Shown: one piece after another, positions 20,791 to 25,726 of the stretch
How positions within the stretch are numbered: the first letter of the stretch is position 1
Layout: the number at the start of each line of letters is the position of its first letter
Notes under the pieces: model-generated
The model's input: the letters and a program-made list of their open reading frames with translations, nothing else
Databases searched by the model: none
Told to the model about the DNA's origin: nothing
Assembly: GCF_014217215.1 (NCBI RefSeq)
Contig: NZ_CP056080.1
Coordinates: 1,798,001 to 1,862,000, forward strand
DNA from: Rothia nasimurium
GTDB taxonomy: Bacteria; Actinomycetota; Actinomycetes; Actinomycetales; Micrococcaceae
Reading direction: 5' to 3'
DNA: 64,000 nt
Program-made: the position numbers and the translations under genes

Positions 20791-20819
20791 TTGCACACCG
20801 CGGTGTTTTTAAGTATCTA
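20791..20819 (+). promoter_or_regulatory. Candidate pflB promoter
   Basis: TTGCAC (20791-20796), 17 bases, then TATCTA (20814-20819) gives a plausible sigma-70-type promoter about 100 bases before the pflB start. The surrounding 20610-20922 stretch is AT-richer than the genes and otherwise empty. No confident Fnr or Rex palindrome was found. Confidence 0.4.
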
Positions 20820-20922: not shown

Positions 20923-23040
20923 ATGACTGCACAGGTTGAAGCCCCCACTACGGGAGTCTTTGTCAACGAACAATCCGCCACCGCTTGGGAAGGCTTCACC
21001 CCCGGCCCCTGGCAAGACAGCATCGACGTGCGCGGCTTCGTCCTTGCAAACTACACCCCCTACGAAGGCGACGCCGCCTTCCTCGCCGGGCCCACCGACA
21101 AGACCCTGCGCGTCTGGGACACCCTCGAAAAGAACTACCTCTCCGTCGAACGCAAAAACCGCGTCTACGACGTAGACACCCACACCCCCGCCGAAATCGA
21201 CGCCTTCCCCGCAGGCTACATCTCAGACGACGACAACGTCATCGTCGGCCTCCAAACCGACGTGCCTCTCAAGCGCGCCATGATGCCCAACGGCGGCTGG
21301 CGCATGGTCGAAACCGCAATCCGCGAAGCCGGTAAAGAACCCGACGAAAACATCAAGAAAATCTTCACCGAATACCGCAAGACCCACAACGACGCAGTCT
21401 TCGACATCTACACCCCCCGCATCCGCGCGGCCCGTTCCTCCCACATCATCACCGGCCTACCCGACGCCTACGGCCGCGGCCGCATCATCGGCGACTACCG
21501 CCGCGTAGCCCTCTACGGCGTCGACAACCTCATCGCCGACAAAGAACGCGCCAAGCACGCCGTTGCCGATCAAGGCTTCTCAGAGCACTGGGCCCGCTAC
21601 CGCGAAGAGCACTCCGAACAGATTAAGGCTCTGAAGCGCCTCAAGAAGATGGCTGCCCTCTACGGCTTCGATATCTCCGGCCCGGCTCGCACCGCCCAAG
21701 AAGCGGTGCAGTGGACCTACTTCGCCTATCTGGCTTCCGTCAAGTCCCAGGACGGCGCCGCCATGTCCATCGGCCGCCTCTCAGGCTTCCTCGACGTCTA
21801 CTTCGAACGCGACCTCGCCGCCGGCCTCATTACCGAAACCGACGCCCAGGAAATGATTGACGCCCTCGTCATCAAACTCCGCATCGTCCGCTTCCTACGC
21901 ACCATCGACTACGACCAGATCTTCTCAGGCGACCCCTACTGGGCCACCTGGTCAGACGGCGGCTTCGCCGACGACGGCCGCACCCTCGTCACCAAAACCT
22001 CCTTCCGTCTCCTGCAGACCCTCCGCAACCTAGGCCCCGCCCCCGAACCCAACATCACCATCTTCTGGGACGAAAACCTACCCACCGGCTACAAGGAATT
22101 CTGCTCCGCTATCTCCATCGAAACCTCCTCCATCCAATACGAATCAGACCCCCAGATTCGTGAACAGTGGGGCGACGACGTCGCCATCGCCTGCTGCGTC
22201 TCCCCCATGAAAATCGGCAAGCAGATGCAGTTCTTCGGCGCCCGCGTCAACGCAGCCAAGGCCCTGCTCTACGCCATCAACGGCGGACGCGACGAAATGA
22301 CCGGCAAACTCATCGTCGAAGGCTACGAACCCATCAAGGGCGACGGCCCCCTCGACTTCGACGAAGTCTGGCTCAAATACGAAGAAATGCTCGACTGGGT
22401 CATCGCCACCTACGTTGAAGCACTCAACATCATCCATTACAGCCACGACAAGTACGCCTACGAATCCATCGAAATGGCCCTCCACGACTCAGACATCATC
22501 CGAGCCATGGGCTGCGGCATCGCCGGCCTCTCCATCGTCGCCGACTCCCTCGCCGCCATCAAATACGCCACCGTCACCCCCGTCCGCGACGAAACCGGCC
22601 TCATCGTCGACTACATCACCGAAGGCGACTTCCCCGCCTACGGCAACGACGACGACCGCGCCGACGACATCGCAGCCACCATCGTCCACACCGTCATGGA
22701 GAAAATCAAGGCCATCCCCCTCTACCGCGACGCCATCCCCACCCAGTCGGTCCTGACCATCACCTCCAACGTGGTCTACGGCAAAGCAACCGGCAACTTC
22801 CCTTCCGGCCACCGCGCAGGCACCCCCTTCTCCCCCGGCGCCAACCCCGAAAACGGCATGGACACCCACGGCATGGTCGCCTCCATGCTCTCCGTCGGCA
22901 AGCTGGACTACGAAGACGCCCTCGACGGCATCTCCCTGACCAACACCATCACCCCTACCGCCCTCGGCCGCACCAAGGAAGAGCAGGTCACCAACCTGGT
23001 CGGAATCTTGGACGCAGGATTCATTCCTGAAGAGGACTAA
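20923..23040 (+). CDS. pflB: Pyruvate formate-lyase core without the glycyl-radical domain
   Basis: PFL cleaves pyruvate with CoA into acetyl-CoA and formate without oxygen. The 705-aa protein carries the active-site pair Cys424-Cys425 in IACCVSPMKIGKQ and matches the PFL barrel throughout, including GKATGNFPSGHRAGTPFSPG. It stops at TNLVGILDAGFIPEED, where E. coli PFL continues into the glycyl-radical domain; that domain is the next gene. A GAGGAG site precedes ATG at 20923; upstream in-frame codons are not protein-like. It is codon-biased to NNC and lies on the strand opposite its dxr and rseP neighbours. Confidence 0.95.
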   Translation: MTAQVEAPTTGVFVNEQSATAWEGFTPGPWQDSIDVRGFVLANYTPYEGDAAFLAGPTDKTLRVWDTLEKNYLSVERKNRVYDVDTHTPAEIDAFPAGYISDDDNVIVGLQTDVPLKRAMMPNGGWRMVETAIREAGKEPDENIKKIFTEYRKTHNDAVFDIYTPRIRAARSSHIITGLPDAYGRGRIIGDYRRVALYGVDNLIADKERAKHAVADQGFSEHWARYREEHSEQIKALKRLKKMAALYGFDISGPARTAQEAVQWTYFAYLASVKSQDGAAMSIGRLSGFLDVYFERDLAAGLITETDAQEMIDALVIKLRIVRFLRTIDYDQIFSGDPYWATWSDGGFADDGRTLVTKTSFRLLQTLRNLGPAPEPNITIFWDENLPTGYKEFCSAISIETSSIQYESDPQIREQWGDDVAIACCVSPMKIGKQMQFFGARVNAAKALLYAINGGRDEMTGKLIVEGYEPIKGDGPLDFDEVWLKYEEMLDWVIATYVEALNIIHYSHDKYAYESIEMALHDSDIIRAMGCGIAGLSIVADSLAAIKYATVTPVRDETGLIVDYITEGDFPAYGNDDDRADDIAATIVHTVMEKIKAIPLYRDAIPTQSVLTITSNVVYGKATGNFPSGHRAGTPFSPGANPENGMDTHGMVASMLSVGKLDYEDALDGISLTNTITPTALGRTKEEQVTNLVGILDAGFIPEED

Positions 23041-23060
23041 AACTCAATAAACCCGCAGTA

Positions 23061-23135
23061 ACCCAGGTAGAGGGGCGCCAGCCAGCACCCTAAACGCCAG
23101 CCCCGAGCCAGCTGGCTGGCACCTCTCTACCGGGT
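23061..23135. repeat. Long intergenic hairpin, family B copy 3 (B3)
   Basis: ACCC and GGTAGAG at 23061-23072 face CTCTACC and GGGT at 23125-23135, with an inner GCCAGCCAGC/GCTGGCTGGC stem. The core includes ACGCCAGCCCCGAGCCAGC (23094-23112), identical over 19 bases to copy B4. It lies exactly in the gap between the two halves of the split pyruvate formate-lyase, so it could tune the ratio of the two mRNA parts. Confidence 0.82.
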
Positions 23136-23168
23136 CTACGACCTCATCTAACTACTAAGGAGAACATC

Positions 23169-23420
23169 ATGGCCGTCAAGACCTACGAAGAGCGCCTCGC
23201 TTCCATGAAGGCAAACCGCGCCAACAAGACCGCCCCCAAGGGCCTCTACCACGCCAACATCAACGTCCTCAACCGCGAAACCCTCGAGGACGCCATGGAG
23301 AACCCCGACAAGTACCCCAACCTGACCGTCCGCGTCTCGGGCTACGCCGTCAACTTCGTGCGCCTCACTCGCGAGCAGCAGCTTGACGTACTCTCACGCA
23401 CCTTCCACCACGGAGCCTAG
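23169..23420 (+). CDS. grcA: Stand-alone glycyl-radical domain of pyruvate formate-lyase (GrcA-like)
   Basis: An 83-aa protein equal to the missing C-terminus of [23 protein letters not shown], then [20 protein letters not shown] and a final SRTFHHGA. Gly58 in RVSGYAV is the radical glycine. E. coli GrcA (YfiD) is a spare copy of this domain that rescues oxygen-damaged PFL; here the core enzyme has no domain of its own, so this protein should be required. Residues 1-25 are a short charged extension. AAGGAG lies six bases before the ATG. pflA starts ten bases after its stop. Confidence 0.93.
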
Positions 23421-23429
23421 TGATTCTTC

Positions 23430-24311
23430 ATGTCACTTGATATCTCTCACGAGATAACCGATACCGCCGGCGAGCTAGCATTTGCTCCGCCGGCGGACCG
23501 GCATTCCGGGGCAGGCACCTGGGGTCTCGGCGAACTCACCGAACTCGAACGCTCCGCCCAACTCAAACTCATGCGCGAAGGGCAGCTCGGCTCCGTCCAC
23601 TCCTGGGAACTGGTCACCGCCGTCGACGGGCCCGGCACCCGCATGACCATCTTCATGAACGGCTGCCCCCTGCGCTGCCTCTACTGCCACAACCCCGACA
23701 CCTTCAACATGAAGGACGGCAAACCCGTCATGGCAGCCGACCTCATCAAAAAAATCAAGCGCATGCGCAAGGTCTTCAAAGCCACCGGCGGCGGCATCAC
23801 CATCTCAGGCGGAGAAGTTCTCATGCAGCGACCCTTCGCCGAGAACATCCTCATGAGCGCCAAATCCCTGGGAATCCATACCTGTATCGACACCTCAGGT
23901 TTTCTCGGGGCTCATGCCTCTGACGAGTTCCTCGATAACGTAGATCTGGTGCTGCTCGATGTTAAATCGGGCTCTGAGGAGGTCTACCGGGAGCTCACCG
24001 GCCGCGCCTTACAGCCCACCATCGACTTCGGCGACAGGCTCTCAGCCCTGGGTAAGAAAATCTGGATCCGCTTTGTGCTGGTGCCCGGCTACACCGATGC
24101 CCCCGACAACATCGAAAAGGTCGCCGACATCGTCTGCCGCTGGCGCAACGTCGTCGAACGCGTTGAGGTACTGCCCTTCCACCAGATGGGCACTGACAAG
24201 TGGGAGTCCCTGGGCTACGACTACAAGCTCAAGGATGTCCACCCGCCCAGCAAAGAAGCCACCGAAGCCGCCCGCGACATCTTCCGCGCCCGCGGCCTCA
24301 CCGTCTTCTAG
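23430..24311 (+). CDS. pflA: Pyruvate formate-lyase activating enzyme (radical SAM)
   Basis: This radical-SAM enzyme uses SAM and a 4Fe-4S cluster to make the glycyl radical in PFL. The 293-aa protein shows the CxxxCxxC motif in NGCPLRCLYCHNPDTF, the GGE motif in ITISGGEVL, and VDLVLLDVKSG. Its N-terminus is about 40-50 residues longer than E. coli PflA (AFAPPADRHSGAGTWG and following), of unknown role; the SAM barrel starts near HSWELVTAVDGPG. It is the last gene of the pfl unit, ending at a perfect 23-bp hairpin. Confidence 0.96.
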   Translation: MSLDISHEITDTAGELAFAPPADRHSGAGTWGLGELTELERSAQLKLMREGQLGSVHSWELVTAVDGPGTRMTIFMNGCPLRCLYCHNPDTFNMKDGKPVMAADLIKKIKRMRKVFKATGGGITISGGEVLMQRPFAENILMSAKSLGIHTCIDTSGFLGAHASDEFLDNVDLVLLDVKSGSEEVYRELTGRALQPTIDFGDRLSALGKKIWIRFVLVPGYTDAPDNIEKVADIVCRWRNVVERVEVLPFHQMGTDKWESLGYDYKLKDVHPPSKEATEAARDIFRARGLTVF

Positions 24312-24327
24312 ACTCCATACATCAAAC

Positions 24328-24397
24328 GATGACCCCCTTGTTTCTCTCTTCACCCCATGGATTATCTCAGGGTCAAGAGAGAAACAAGGGGGTCATC
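24328..24397. terminator. Bidirectional terminator between pflA and dxr
   Basis: A perfect 23-bp stem: 24328-24350 (starting GATGACCCCCTTGTTTC) and its exact complement at 24375-24397, with a 24-base loop. It separates the convergent pflA and dxr genes. Confidence 0.9.
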
Positions 24398-24421: not shown

Positions 24422-25726
24422 CTAGGCCTGCCCCAGAATCTCGTTGGCGCGGGTGCGGGCCCAGGCTTCCGCCTCCAGCACCCCTTCCAGGGTCAGAGAA
24501 CCAGATTCGGCCAGGGCCGAAGAATTCGCGTGCTCATCAAGCACCCGCCCGGTCGTCTCAATCATGTCGGTAAAACGAATAGCACCGGCGTGGAAGGCAG
24601 CAACCGCCTCCTCATTCGCTGCGTTGAAAACTGCAGGGAAGGTACCGCCCCGCTGGCCCGACCGCTTAATCATCTCCACCGCCGGGAAGGCCTTGTTATC
24701 CAGGGGCTCGAAGGTCCACTCGGTAGCCTGCGACCAGTCGCAGGGCTGCGCGATACCCGGAATACGGTGGGGCCAGGTCAGCCCCAAGGCAATGGGCAGC
24801 AGCATGGTGGGCGGGGACGCCTGAGCCAGGGTCGAGCCATCCACAAACTGCACCATAGAATGCACCACCGACTGGCGGTGAACCGTCACATCGATGCGGT
24901 CCAGGTCAATGCCGAAGAGGTGGTGGGCCTCCAGCACCTCCAGGGCCTTATTGACCATAGAGGCCGAGTTGGTGGTCACCACCAGCCCCATATCCCAGGT
25001 GGGGTGGGCTAGAGCCTGCGCCGGGGTGACCTCCCGCAGCTGCTCGTAGGTCATACCCCTAAAGGGCCCGCCCGATGCGGTTAGCACCAGCCGGTCAATC
25101 TCCCGGTCGGTGCCCGAAGCCAGGGCCTGGGCCAGAGCAGAATGCTCAGAATCCACCGGAATCATGGGCTGGTCCAGGGGTGACGCGTCAACGGCGGCCT
25201 TGACCAGCTCGCCACCGGCAATCAGGGACTCCTTGTTAGCCAGTGCCACCTGGGAGCCTGCCTGCAGGGCAGCCAGGGTGGGTTCCAGACCGATAGAGCC
25301 TGTGATGCCGTTGAGCACCACGTCCGCCCCGGCGCGGGCTGCGGCGGTGGCGGCGTCCTTGCCCCACTCGATCTGGGGGCTGTAGCCCGGTGCCAGCTCA
25401 GCCAGCAGCGAGCGCAGGGCGGTGGCGTCCGCTTCGGTGCCGCTGGTGGCGACCAGGTGCGGACGCAGGCGGGCGGCCTGCTCTGCCAGCAGGGGCAGGG
25501 AGTGGGAGCCTGCTGAGAGGGCAGTGACGCGCACGGGAGCGTCGTCGCTACCGGTGGAGGTTCCTGCCAGGGAGTTGAGGTGGTCGATGACCTGCACGCC
25601 CTGGGTGCCGATGGACCCGGTGGAGCCGAGCAGGGTGACCGTCCGCCCGCCGTGCAGGAAGTCTGCTAGCTGGTCGGTAAGTTGATCGAGGGAGGCGCCG
25701 AAGCGCTGAGTTGAGCCAAATCGCAT
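24422..25726 (-). CDS. dxr: 1-deoxy-D-xylulose 5-phosphate reductoisomerase
   Basis: Dxr makes MEP, the first committed MEP-pathway intermediate, using NADPH. The 434-aa protein has the NADPH motif LLGSTGSIGTQ near residues 32-42, the metal/substrate stretch PVDSEHSAL, ASGGPFRGM and the C-terminal NAANEEAVAAF. The N-terminus is about 27 residues longer than typical (MRFGSTQRFGASLDQ). It belongs with rseP and ispG, but the pfl module now lies between. A 51-aa gene ends five bases upstream of its ATG. Confidence 0.96.
   Translation of the reverse strand: MRFGSTQRFGASLDQLTDQLADFLHGGRTVTLLGSTGSIGTQGVQVIDHLNSLAGTSTGSDDAPVRVTALSAGSHSLPLLAEQAARLRPHLVATSGTEADATALRSLLAELAPGYSPQIEWGKDAATAAARAGADVVLNGITGSIGLEPTLAALQAGSQVALANKESLIAGGELVKAAVDASPLDQPMIPVDSEHSALAQALASGTDREIDRLVLTASGGPFRGMTYEQLREVTPAQALAHPTWDMGLVVTTNSASMVNKALEVLEAHHLFGIDLDRIDVTVHRQSVVHSMVQFVDGSTLAQASPPTMLLPIALGLTWPHRIPGIAQPCDWSQATEWTFEPLDNKAFPAVEMIKRSGQRGGTFPAVFNAANEEAVAAFHAGAIRFTDMIETTGRVLDEHANSSALAESGSLTLEGVLEAEAWARTRANEILGQA

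Follow-up and report, generated by a model that had tools for sequence, protein, structure and literature searches.

We analysed a 64,000-nt window of the Rothia nasimurium genome (assembly GCF_014217215.1, contig NZ_CP056080.1, positions 1,798,001 to 1,862,000) in which pyruvate formate-lyase (PFL) appears as two separate genes; coordinates below are those of the window, and the genome was searched whole (2.53 Mb, 3 contigs). Over the 640 core columns of the tree alignment, the nearest named row to this genome, R. nasimurium, was 100% identical. Three genes follow one another on the + strand. The PFL core, corresponding to PflB without its glycyl loop (20923..23040, 705 amino acids), covers positions 1-681 of 744 in the TIGR01255 model and has the C-terminus TNLVGILDAGFIPEED. 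After a gap of 128 bases, and in a different reading frame, lies the gene for a small glycyl-radical subunit of 83 amino acids (23169..23420), which has its own ATG with TAAGGAG upstream and belongs to the NCBIfam family GrcA2 (NF008341, 164.3 bits, cut-off 145). The small protein has an N-terminal helix (residues 6-18), a strand region with the motif GLYHANINV and the radical loop RVSG(58)YAV, in which Gly58 is the radical glycine. The pflA start lies nine bases beyond its stop; this gene (23430..24311, 293 amino acids) encodes the radical S-adenosylmethionine activating enzyme (TIGR02493, 312.9 bits, cut-off 231.75). The initial annotation, which had been made from the sequence alone, described this same order of a 705-residue core, an 83-residue radical gene with an AAGGAG site and Gly58, and then pflA, and both coordinates and translations agree with it.

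Together the two proteins account for nearly an entire PFL. The core aligns to residues 3-694 of E. coli PflB (PDB 1h16) and the small protein to residues 698-756, which leaves no more than about three E. coli residues at the joint without a counterpart; on the TIGR01255 model the small protein occupies positions 682-742. This alignment bears out the earlier statement that the core ends where the glycyl-radical domain begins. The PFL barrel lies in the core (PF02901, 654 bits), as do the adjacent catalytic cysteines C424-C425 (E. coli Cys418-Cys419), which were invariant in 20 aligned rows. The glycyl-radical domain is not in the core chain, where PF01228 matches only over positions 1-65 of 106, and the match of the small gene to this model spans positions 49-106. 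Likeness to E. coli PflB therefore extends to the Cys-Cys pair, the RVSGYA loop and nearly the whole chain, but what is one chain in E. coli is two genes separated by a 128-base gap in Rothia. The E. coli protein GrcA, or YfiD (TIGR04365; PDB 6owr), is likewise a small autonomous protein that duplicates the PFL C-terminus with its own glycine. However, GrcA has 127 amino acids, of which residues 1-60 are disordered, and serves a full-length PFL, whereas the Rothia small protein has a short, conserved, helix-forming N-terminus, is encoded between core and pflA, and occurs where no full-length PFL was found. Its score against the E. coli GrcA model is 87.8 bits (cut-off 170), and the GrcA2 cut-off was passed both by this protein and by six further small proteins scanned from loci of the same type, which we call split A.

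A profile search of the whole Rothia genome with PF02901 identified a single place and hence no full-length PFL. PF01228 matched in three places, namely the core end, the small gene and one 646-amino-acid frame, which is the anaerobic ribonucleotide reductase NrdD (1016.7 bits). The claims of the initial annotation that no built-in copy of the glycyl-radical domain exists and that no full-length PFL lies elsewhere in this genome thus withstood the searches. With a separate protein as the sole place where the PFL radical domain turned up, a working enzyme would have to receive its radical in trans, as had been proposed. We extended the search with the PflB model to 58 (20 + 38) of the 65 relatives with the same split described below, many of them draft or metagenome-assembled genomes (MAGs), and no uninterrupted full-length PFL was found in any of the 58. 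The batch that supplied the 20 numbered 22 and also took in the fused L137 and the re-fused L097. In two of them (G1134 and G1154) a single PflB match ran across both genes, but through a stop; in several others the core match extended slightly beyond the core stop, and a few held another, low-scoring glycyl-radical enzyme (e.g., G826, 158 bits). A full-length PFL encoded elsewhere was therefore rejected for this genome and for these 58, and a stand-alone rescuer of a full-length PFL in the same genome, which is what a spare part would be, was found neither in Rothia nor in the 58. Accordingly, although the names of the NCBIfam families GrcA2 and GrcA3 (NF038360) imply a spare cofactor, the proteins at these loci are the sole PFL radical carriers found.

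The same split, which the initial annotation had suggested seeking in relatives, recurs widely. Counts of named loci refer to the best 80 of at least 586 species-genome matches to the core; 65 of these 80 loci are split and 15 carry both parts in one frame. One locus (L140) was counted as split by its small gene, its core being broken by an internal stop on a short MAG contig. Split loci occur in Rothia, Corynebacterium, Actinomyces, Schaalia, Actinotignum, Trueperella, Varibaculum, Brachybacterium, Helcobacillus, Tessaracoccus, Propionibacterium and one Cellulomonadaceae MAG, and fused loci in Bifidobacteriaceae, an unclassified actinobacterium, Cellulomonas, Sanguibacter, Miniimonas, two Oscillospiraceae, one Propionibacterium MAG and one Corynebacterium (L097). 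Within the genus Rothia, glycyl-radical matches were present in 19 of 35 genomes, and in all 19 the PFL pieces were two separate matches; four near-whole-domain matches in the genus all lay in frames of 625-646 amino acids, of which the one checked, that of our own genome, is NrdD. In the order to which Rothia belongs, 143 of 396 genomes passed the PflB cut-off; at least 32 places ended at model positions 679-702, and the other above-cut-off matches listed were full-length, including those of six genomes from a family (f76) in which many split ones occur as well. The split is therefore common but not universal.

Conservation of gene order and variation at the joint both bear on how the two genes relate. 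Among 86 loci, a set that counts some genomes twice, the order core, small gene, pflA was kept in 83, and the remaining three stretches were too short to tell. The gap between core and small gene ranged from 4 to 378 bases (L140 left out), and the small gene was in frame with the core in 34 of the 86 loci, compared with 28.7 expected (p = 0.25 against one third). A joint that recurs with variable gaps and an unconserved frame is explained neither by chance nor by frameshift. The small gene itself is under purifying selection, as judged from ratios of nonsynonymous to synonymous substitution rates of 0 to 0.10 against five Rothia loci tested and of 0.14 to 0.36 against four more distant loci, where silent changes are many; for example, comparison with one locus (L073) gave 23 silent and 2 amino-acid changes. 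The values computed alongside for the core took in some bases upstream of its start, because frames were read from stop to stop. Codon usage is strongly biased in core and small gene, more so than in pflA. Twofold codons ending in C and T number 150:5 in the Rothia core, 20:0 in the small gene and 44:14 in pflA, and across 64 split loci the C-ending share is 0.879, 0.914 and 0.801, respectively, a bias that would fit strong expression of the core and of the small protein at matching levels.

Split cores end in NLVGILDAGFIPEED or similar, and split small proteins have an extension of 20-24 residues before GLYHANINV. Across 67 split A small proteins, Arg9 and Arg17 of this extension are present in 67 of 67, Met13 in 99%, and Glu8 and Lys14 in 93%. 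Structure prediction for the small protein alone (mean predicted local distance difference test score, pLDDT, of 69) placed a helix at residues 6-18 with a pLDDT of about 60-70, and residues 19-32 scored under 50. The conserved helix probably helps the small protein to dock on the core or on PflA. The way MAFFT aligned the extension suggested that it might have arisen as a degenerate duplicate of the helix that lies just before the break; in a profile test the likeness was not significant (p = 0.054 with split A cores, p = 0.095 with fused PFLs), and such an origin is possible.

A second form of split emerged when the phylum was sampled evenly (396 genomes, at least 30 PFL loci present, 30 examined). 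Six of the 30 loci were fused, two had the Rothia-type split (our own genome and L070), 21 had another split, here called split B, and in one (L068) no glycyl domain was found. Split B cores end near model position 665 rather than 681, or about 15 residues earlier than those of split A, and some carry a tail with Cys; the small proteins of these loci start with a helix like EQVDNLVSMIDGY. The next gene is pflA in 7 of the 21; the other 14 loci were too short to tell. The 21 genomes appear to be Coriobacteriia. Of 299 Bacillota genomes sampled, 89 passed the cut-off, and among the listed matches above it only one was short (G1052, model 2-668); there core, small gene and pflA are consecutive, and the core groups with split B in a tree that used ten of the 21. 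Both split B small proteins scanned, one of the 21 and the one from Bacillota, passed the cut-off for GrcA3. Two structures of formate acetyltransferase in the PDB (38la and 38lb, 687 and 739 residues) are, by sequence, cores without a glycyl-domain match, and they are of the split B rather than the split A type; 38lb, which has a Cys-containing tail, scored 1205 bits with a split B core compared with 868 with the window core.

In our trees split A lies among fused actinobacterial PFLs, far from split B, and the placement gives good support to at least two origins of the split PFL. Within split A the trees differ, in that a fused group (Cellulomonas, Sanguibacter, Miniimonas, the two Oscillospiraceae and the Propionibacterium MAG) falls either inside or beside it. 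An approximately unbiased test on 50 rows did not reject one split A clade that includes L097 (p = 0.718). A single origin followed by later re-fusion is thus allowed by these data but not proven, and a second split or a clean re-fusion may be considered instead. One individual case is L097 (Corynebacterium sp. Marseille-P4321), seen on one contig. It has a single open frame with TAC at the position of TAA in the five relatives printed; what was once the gap, with its ribosome site and ATG, is now read in frame as part of a linker that exceeds those of the other fused PFLs in its neighbourhood by about 50 residues. Its sequence identifies it as a re-fusion of the two parts by loss of the stop, and such a natural fusion indicates that core and small protein are functionally tied.

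The locus without a glycyl domain (L068, also L163, in G057) has its PFL core in a 700-amino-acid frame whose C-terminus is unlike the family. No glycyl motif was found in the 8-kb stretch, and the core is possibly a decaying gene.

At the level of sequence, then, the anatomy of the locus, the failure to find a full-length PFL, the recurrence of the split, purifying selection on the small gene and the linkage of the three genes are established, and the Rothia PFL is very probably a naturally split, obligate two-subunit enzyme. By analogy with E. coli PFL, the barrel and Cys-Cys pair of the 705-residue core would combine with the strand and glycyl loop of the 83-residue protein to form the catalyst: PflA would abstract hydrogen at Gly58 in the small protein, the radical would move to the Cys424-Cys425 pair of the core, and pyruvate and CoA would yield acetyl-CoA and formate. 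A close laboratory precedent is tPFL, a truncation of E. coli PFL to residues 1-695 that ends where the natural core ends, described in an excerpt of the work of Andorfer and others (PMC8683613). Per installed radical its turnover resembles that of PFL (kcat of 121 per second for tPFL:YfiD and 204 for tPFL:truncYfiD, compared with 105 for PFL). Radical uptake by tPFL:truncYfiD was 2.7 µM compared with 17.2 for PFL, and activation of tPFL:YfiD and tPFL:truncYfiD was about 32-fold and about 6-fold below that of cPFL:YfiD. Since kcat per radical is normal and binding and uptake are weak, a two-part form works chemically and binding is its weak step. The N-terminal segment of the natural small protein differs from that of the YfiD used with tPFL, and the helix of the split family may remedy this weak binding. 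Physiology offers support as well. Actinomyces naeslundii secretes formate (PMC6493303), and strain NCTC 10301 (G1129, L103), which may differ from the strain of that study, has only the split form in its genome. For Fannyhessea (Atopobium) vaginae, grcA and pflB are listed separately, both among the genes down-regulated in one condition (PMC11979175), and hypophosphite, an inhibitor of PFL, lowers its formate by about 90% (PMC12208373).

Several observations weigh against a working two-subunit enzyme. The Rothia core scores just below the TIGR01255 cut-off (982.8 compared with 994.2 bits). Docking of the helix was not seen in the predicted structure of the natural fusion L097, a model of poor quality (mean pLDDT of 58). 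In PMC8683613, radical uptake by tPFL:YfiD was 32-fold below that by cPFL:YfiD, and binding of YfiD to tPFL was too weak to be seen by calorimetry, compared with 14 µM for cPFL:YfiD; the poor performance of tPFL:YfiD means that the natural pair must either do better or be poor. The formate level of A. naeslundii in PMC6493303 was low. Finally, the literature searched yielded no experimental work on a split member.

Other readings of the locus fare differently. The initial annotation had raised a frameshift or assembly error as a danger to its reading. An error that broke one gene has little beyond the adjacency of the two parts to recommend it and is of negligible probability, since the arrangement is found in many separate genomes with gaps of varying length and the small gene has its own start and ribosome site; on these grounds, and because the frame is unconserved, assembly error, frameshift and read-through were all rejected. 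It is also very improbable that the small protein is a mere spare, like E. coli GrcA, with a complete PFL encoded elsewhere or produced by read-through of the core stop. The NCBIfam name, autonomous glycyl radical cofactor GrcA2, would suit such a role, as would the in-frame loci and the single frame of L097. Nevertheless, the genome searches found no complete enzyme in Rothia and none uninterrupted in the further split genomes, the share of in-frame loci does not differ significantly from chance and the two Rothia genes are in different frames, and the small gene retains its own ribosome site and ATG.

If the Rothia PFL is indeed a two-subunit enzyme, it can still be asked why it is split. 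One possible, tentative explanation, the benefit suggested in the initial annotation, is that the split is a selected device, in which oxygen cuts only the 83-residue part, which is swapped out while the large core is kept. Cleavage of PFL by oxygen at the radical glycine and its rescue by a spare domain are known, split A is common in actinobacteria with a facultative, oxygen-exposed lifestyle, and codon bias of the small gene at least equal to that of the core fits an ample supply. Such a benefit is plausible, and small subunits may be exchanged after oxygen damage. However, the split B lineage, taken to be Coriobacteriia, would consist mostly of strict anaerobes, Cellulomonas and Sanguibacter are fused although oxygen-exposed, and one Corynebacterium (L097) has re-fused its genes. 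A neutral origin seems a little doubtful; on this view a stop and a fresh start would have arisen in a loop, been tolerated because the parts still assemble, drifted and occasionally been reversed. The position of the break just before the glycyl-domain strand, the free variation of gap length, tail and hairpin, and the stop loss in L097 agree with it, whereas conservation of the N-terminal extension, retention of the split across many genera and a similar outcome from two independent origins do not. Comparably speculative is a scheme in which the enzyme works as a cartridge: PflA would charge small subunits that are free or held loosely by their N-terminal helix, charged subunits would enter and leave the core, those cut by oxygen would be replaced many times per core, and the supply of small subunits would set the radical dose, in an arrangement that evolved at least twice and is reversible.

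The interval between core and small gene contains a hairpin on the + strand (23058..23139) with 29-nt arms, 83% complementary, and a 24-nt loop (z = -4.4). Against single-base shuffles, 13 of 18 genus loci had folds with z < -3; among the remaining split A loci whose gaps measured 40-400 nt, this was true of 12 of 52. Because the hairpin is variable and some Rothia loci lack it, it was rejected as an essential part of the split; perhaps it marks an mRNA 3' end or controls the ratio of the two products. Elsewhere in the genome, 26 further matches to this interval were found (E up to 1), most of them of 15-28 bases and within positions 45-83 of the query, and two longer ones of 45 and 51 bases (89% and 86% identical). 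The element at 23094-23117 looks like a dispersed repeat resembling repetitive extragenic palindromic (REP) sequences. Beyond pflA, an inverted repeat without assigned strand (24328..24397, 28-nt arms, 96%) faces a convergent gene (24422-25726) and is probably a terminator.

The pflA start is uncertain; read from 23430, the protein has an N-terminal stretch of about 55 amino acids (23430-23594) beyond the TIGR02493 model, and the ATG there is without a clear ribosome site. Upstream of the core, a perfect 12-bp palindrome (20795-20806, ACACCGCGGTGT) is probably no operator, because it is not kept in four Rothia relatives. In Actinomyces culturomici (L108), the gap of 378 bases holds a reversed piece matching PflB model positions 594-682 (G822:C17:1221506-1221772), which looks like a copied and inverted part of the core. 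One Rothia-genus genome (G006) carries an isolated NrdD-like C-terminal piece that has lost part of its cysteines (L161, G006:C14:13147-13332, minus strand), and the scan of the genus for glycyl-radical proteins found no full NrdD-length match in this genome; by comparison with the NrdD of our genome, the piece looks like a decayed NrdD end and was rejected as a spare subunit. Matches to the small subunit also occurred in 1533 of 50,697 records of a phage collection (E up to 1e-5), mostly phages of Escherichia, Salmonella and Klebsiella.

The existence of the GrcA2 and GrcA3 families in NCBIfam and of 38la and 38lb in the PDB means that the parts have already been met by others. Although the chemistry, the two small-protein families and cores of the split B type are known, an obligate PFL of two genes that is widespread and has arisen more than once is new, and no description of a natural split PFL was found among the titles and abstract openings listed, in a literature in which subscription journals are mostly absent. 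PFL is a textbook glycyl-radical enzyme, usually drawn with the radical built in, and in Rothia and many of its relatives the only radical-bearing part seems to be the counterpart of the protein that E. coli keeps as a spare. For annotation, this means that grcA in split genomes is probably a PFL subunit gene and not a stress accessory. If these actinobacterial groups run a two-part PFL, the E. coli spare part would be one end of a series towards full division of labour. Natural pairs would allow tests of how PflA gains access to a glycine which, in the one-chain enzyme, lies buried, and would also bear on the exchange of the radical part after oxygen damage and on the poor binding between tPFL and the spare part in E. 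coli.

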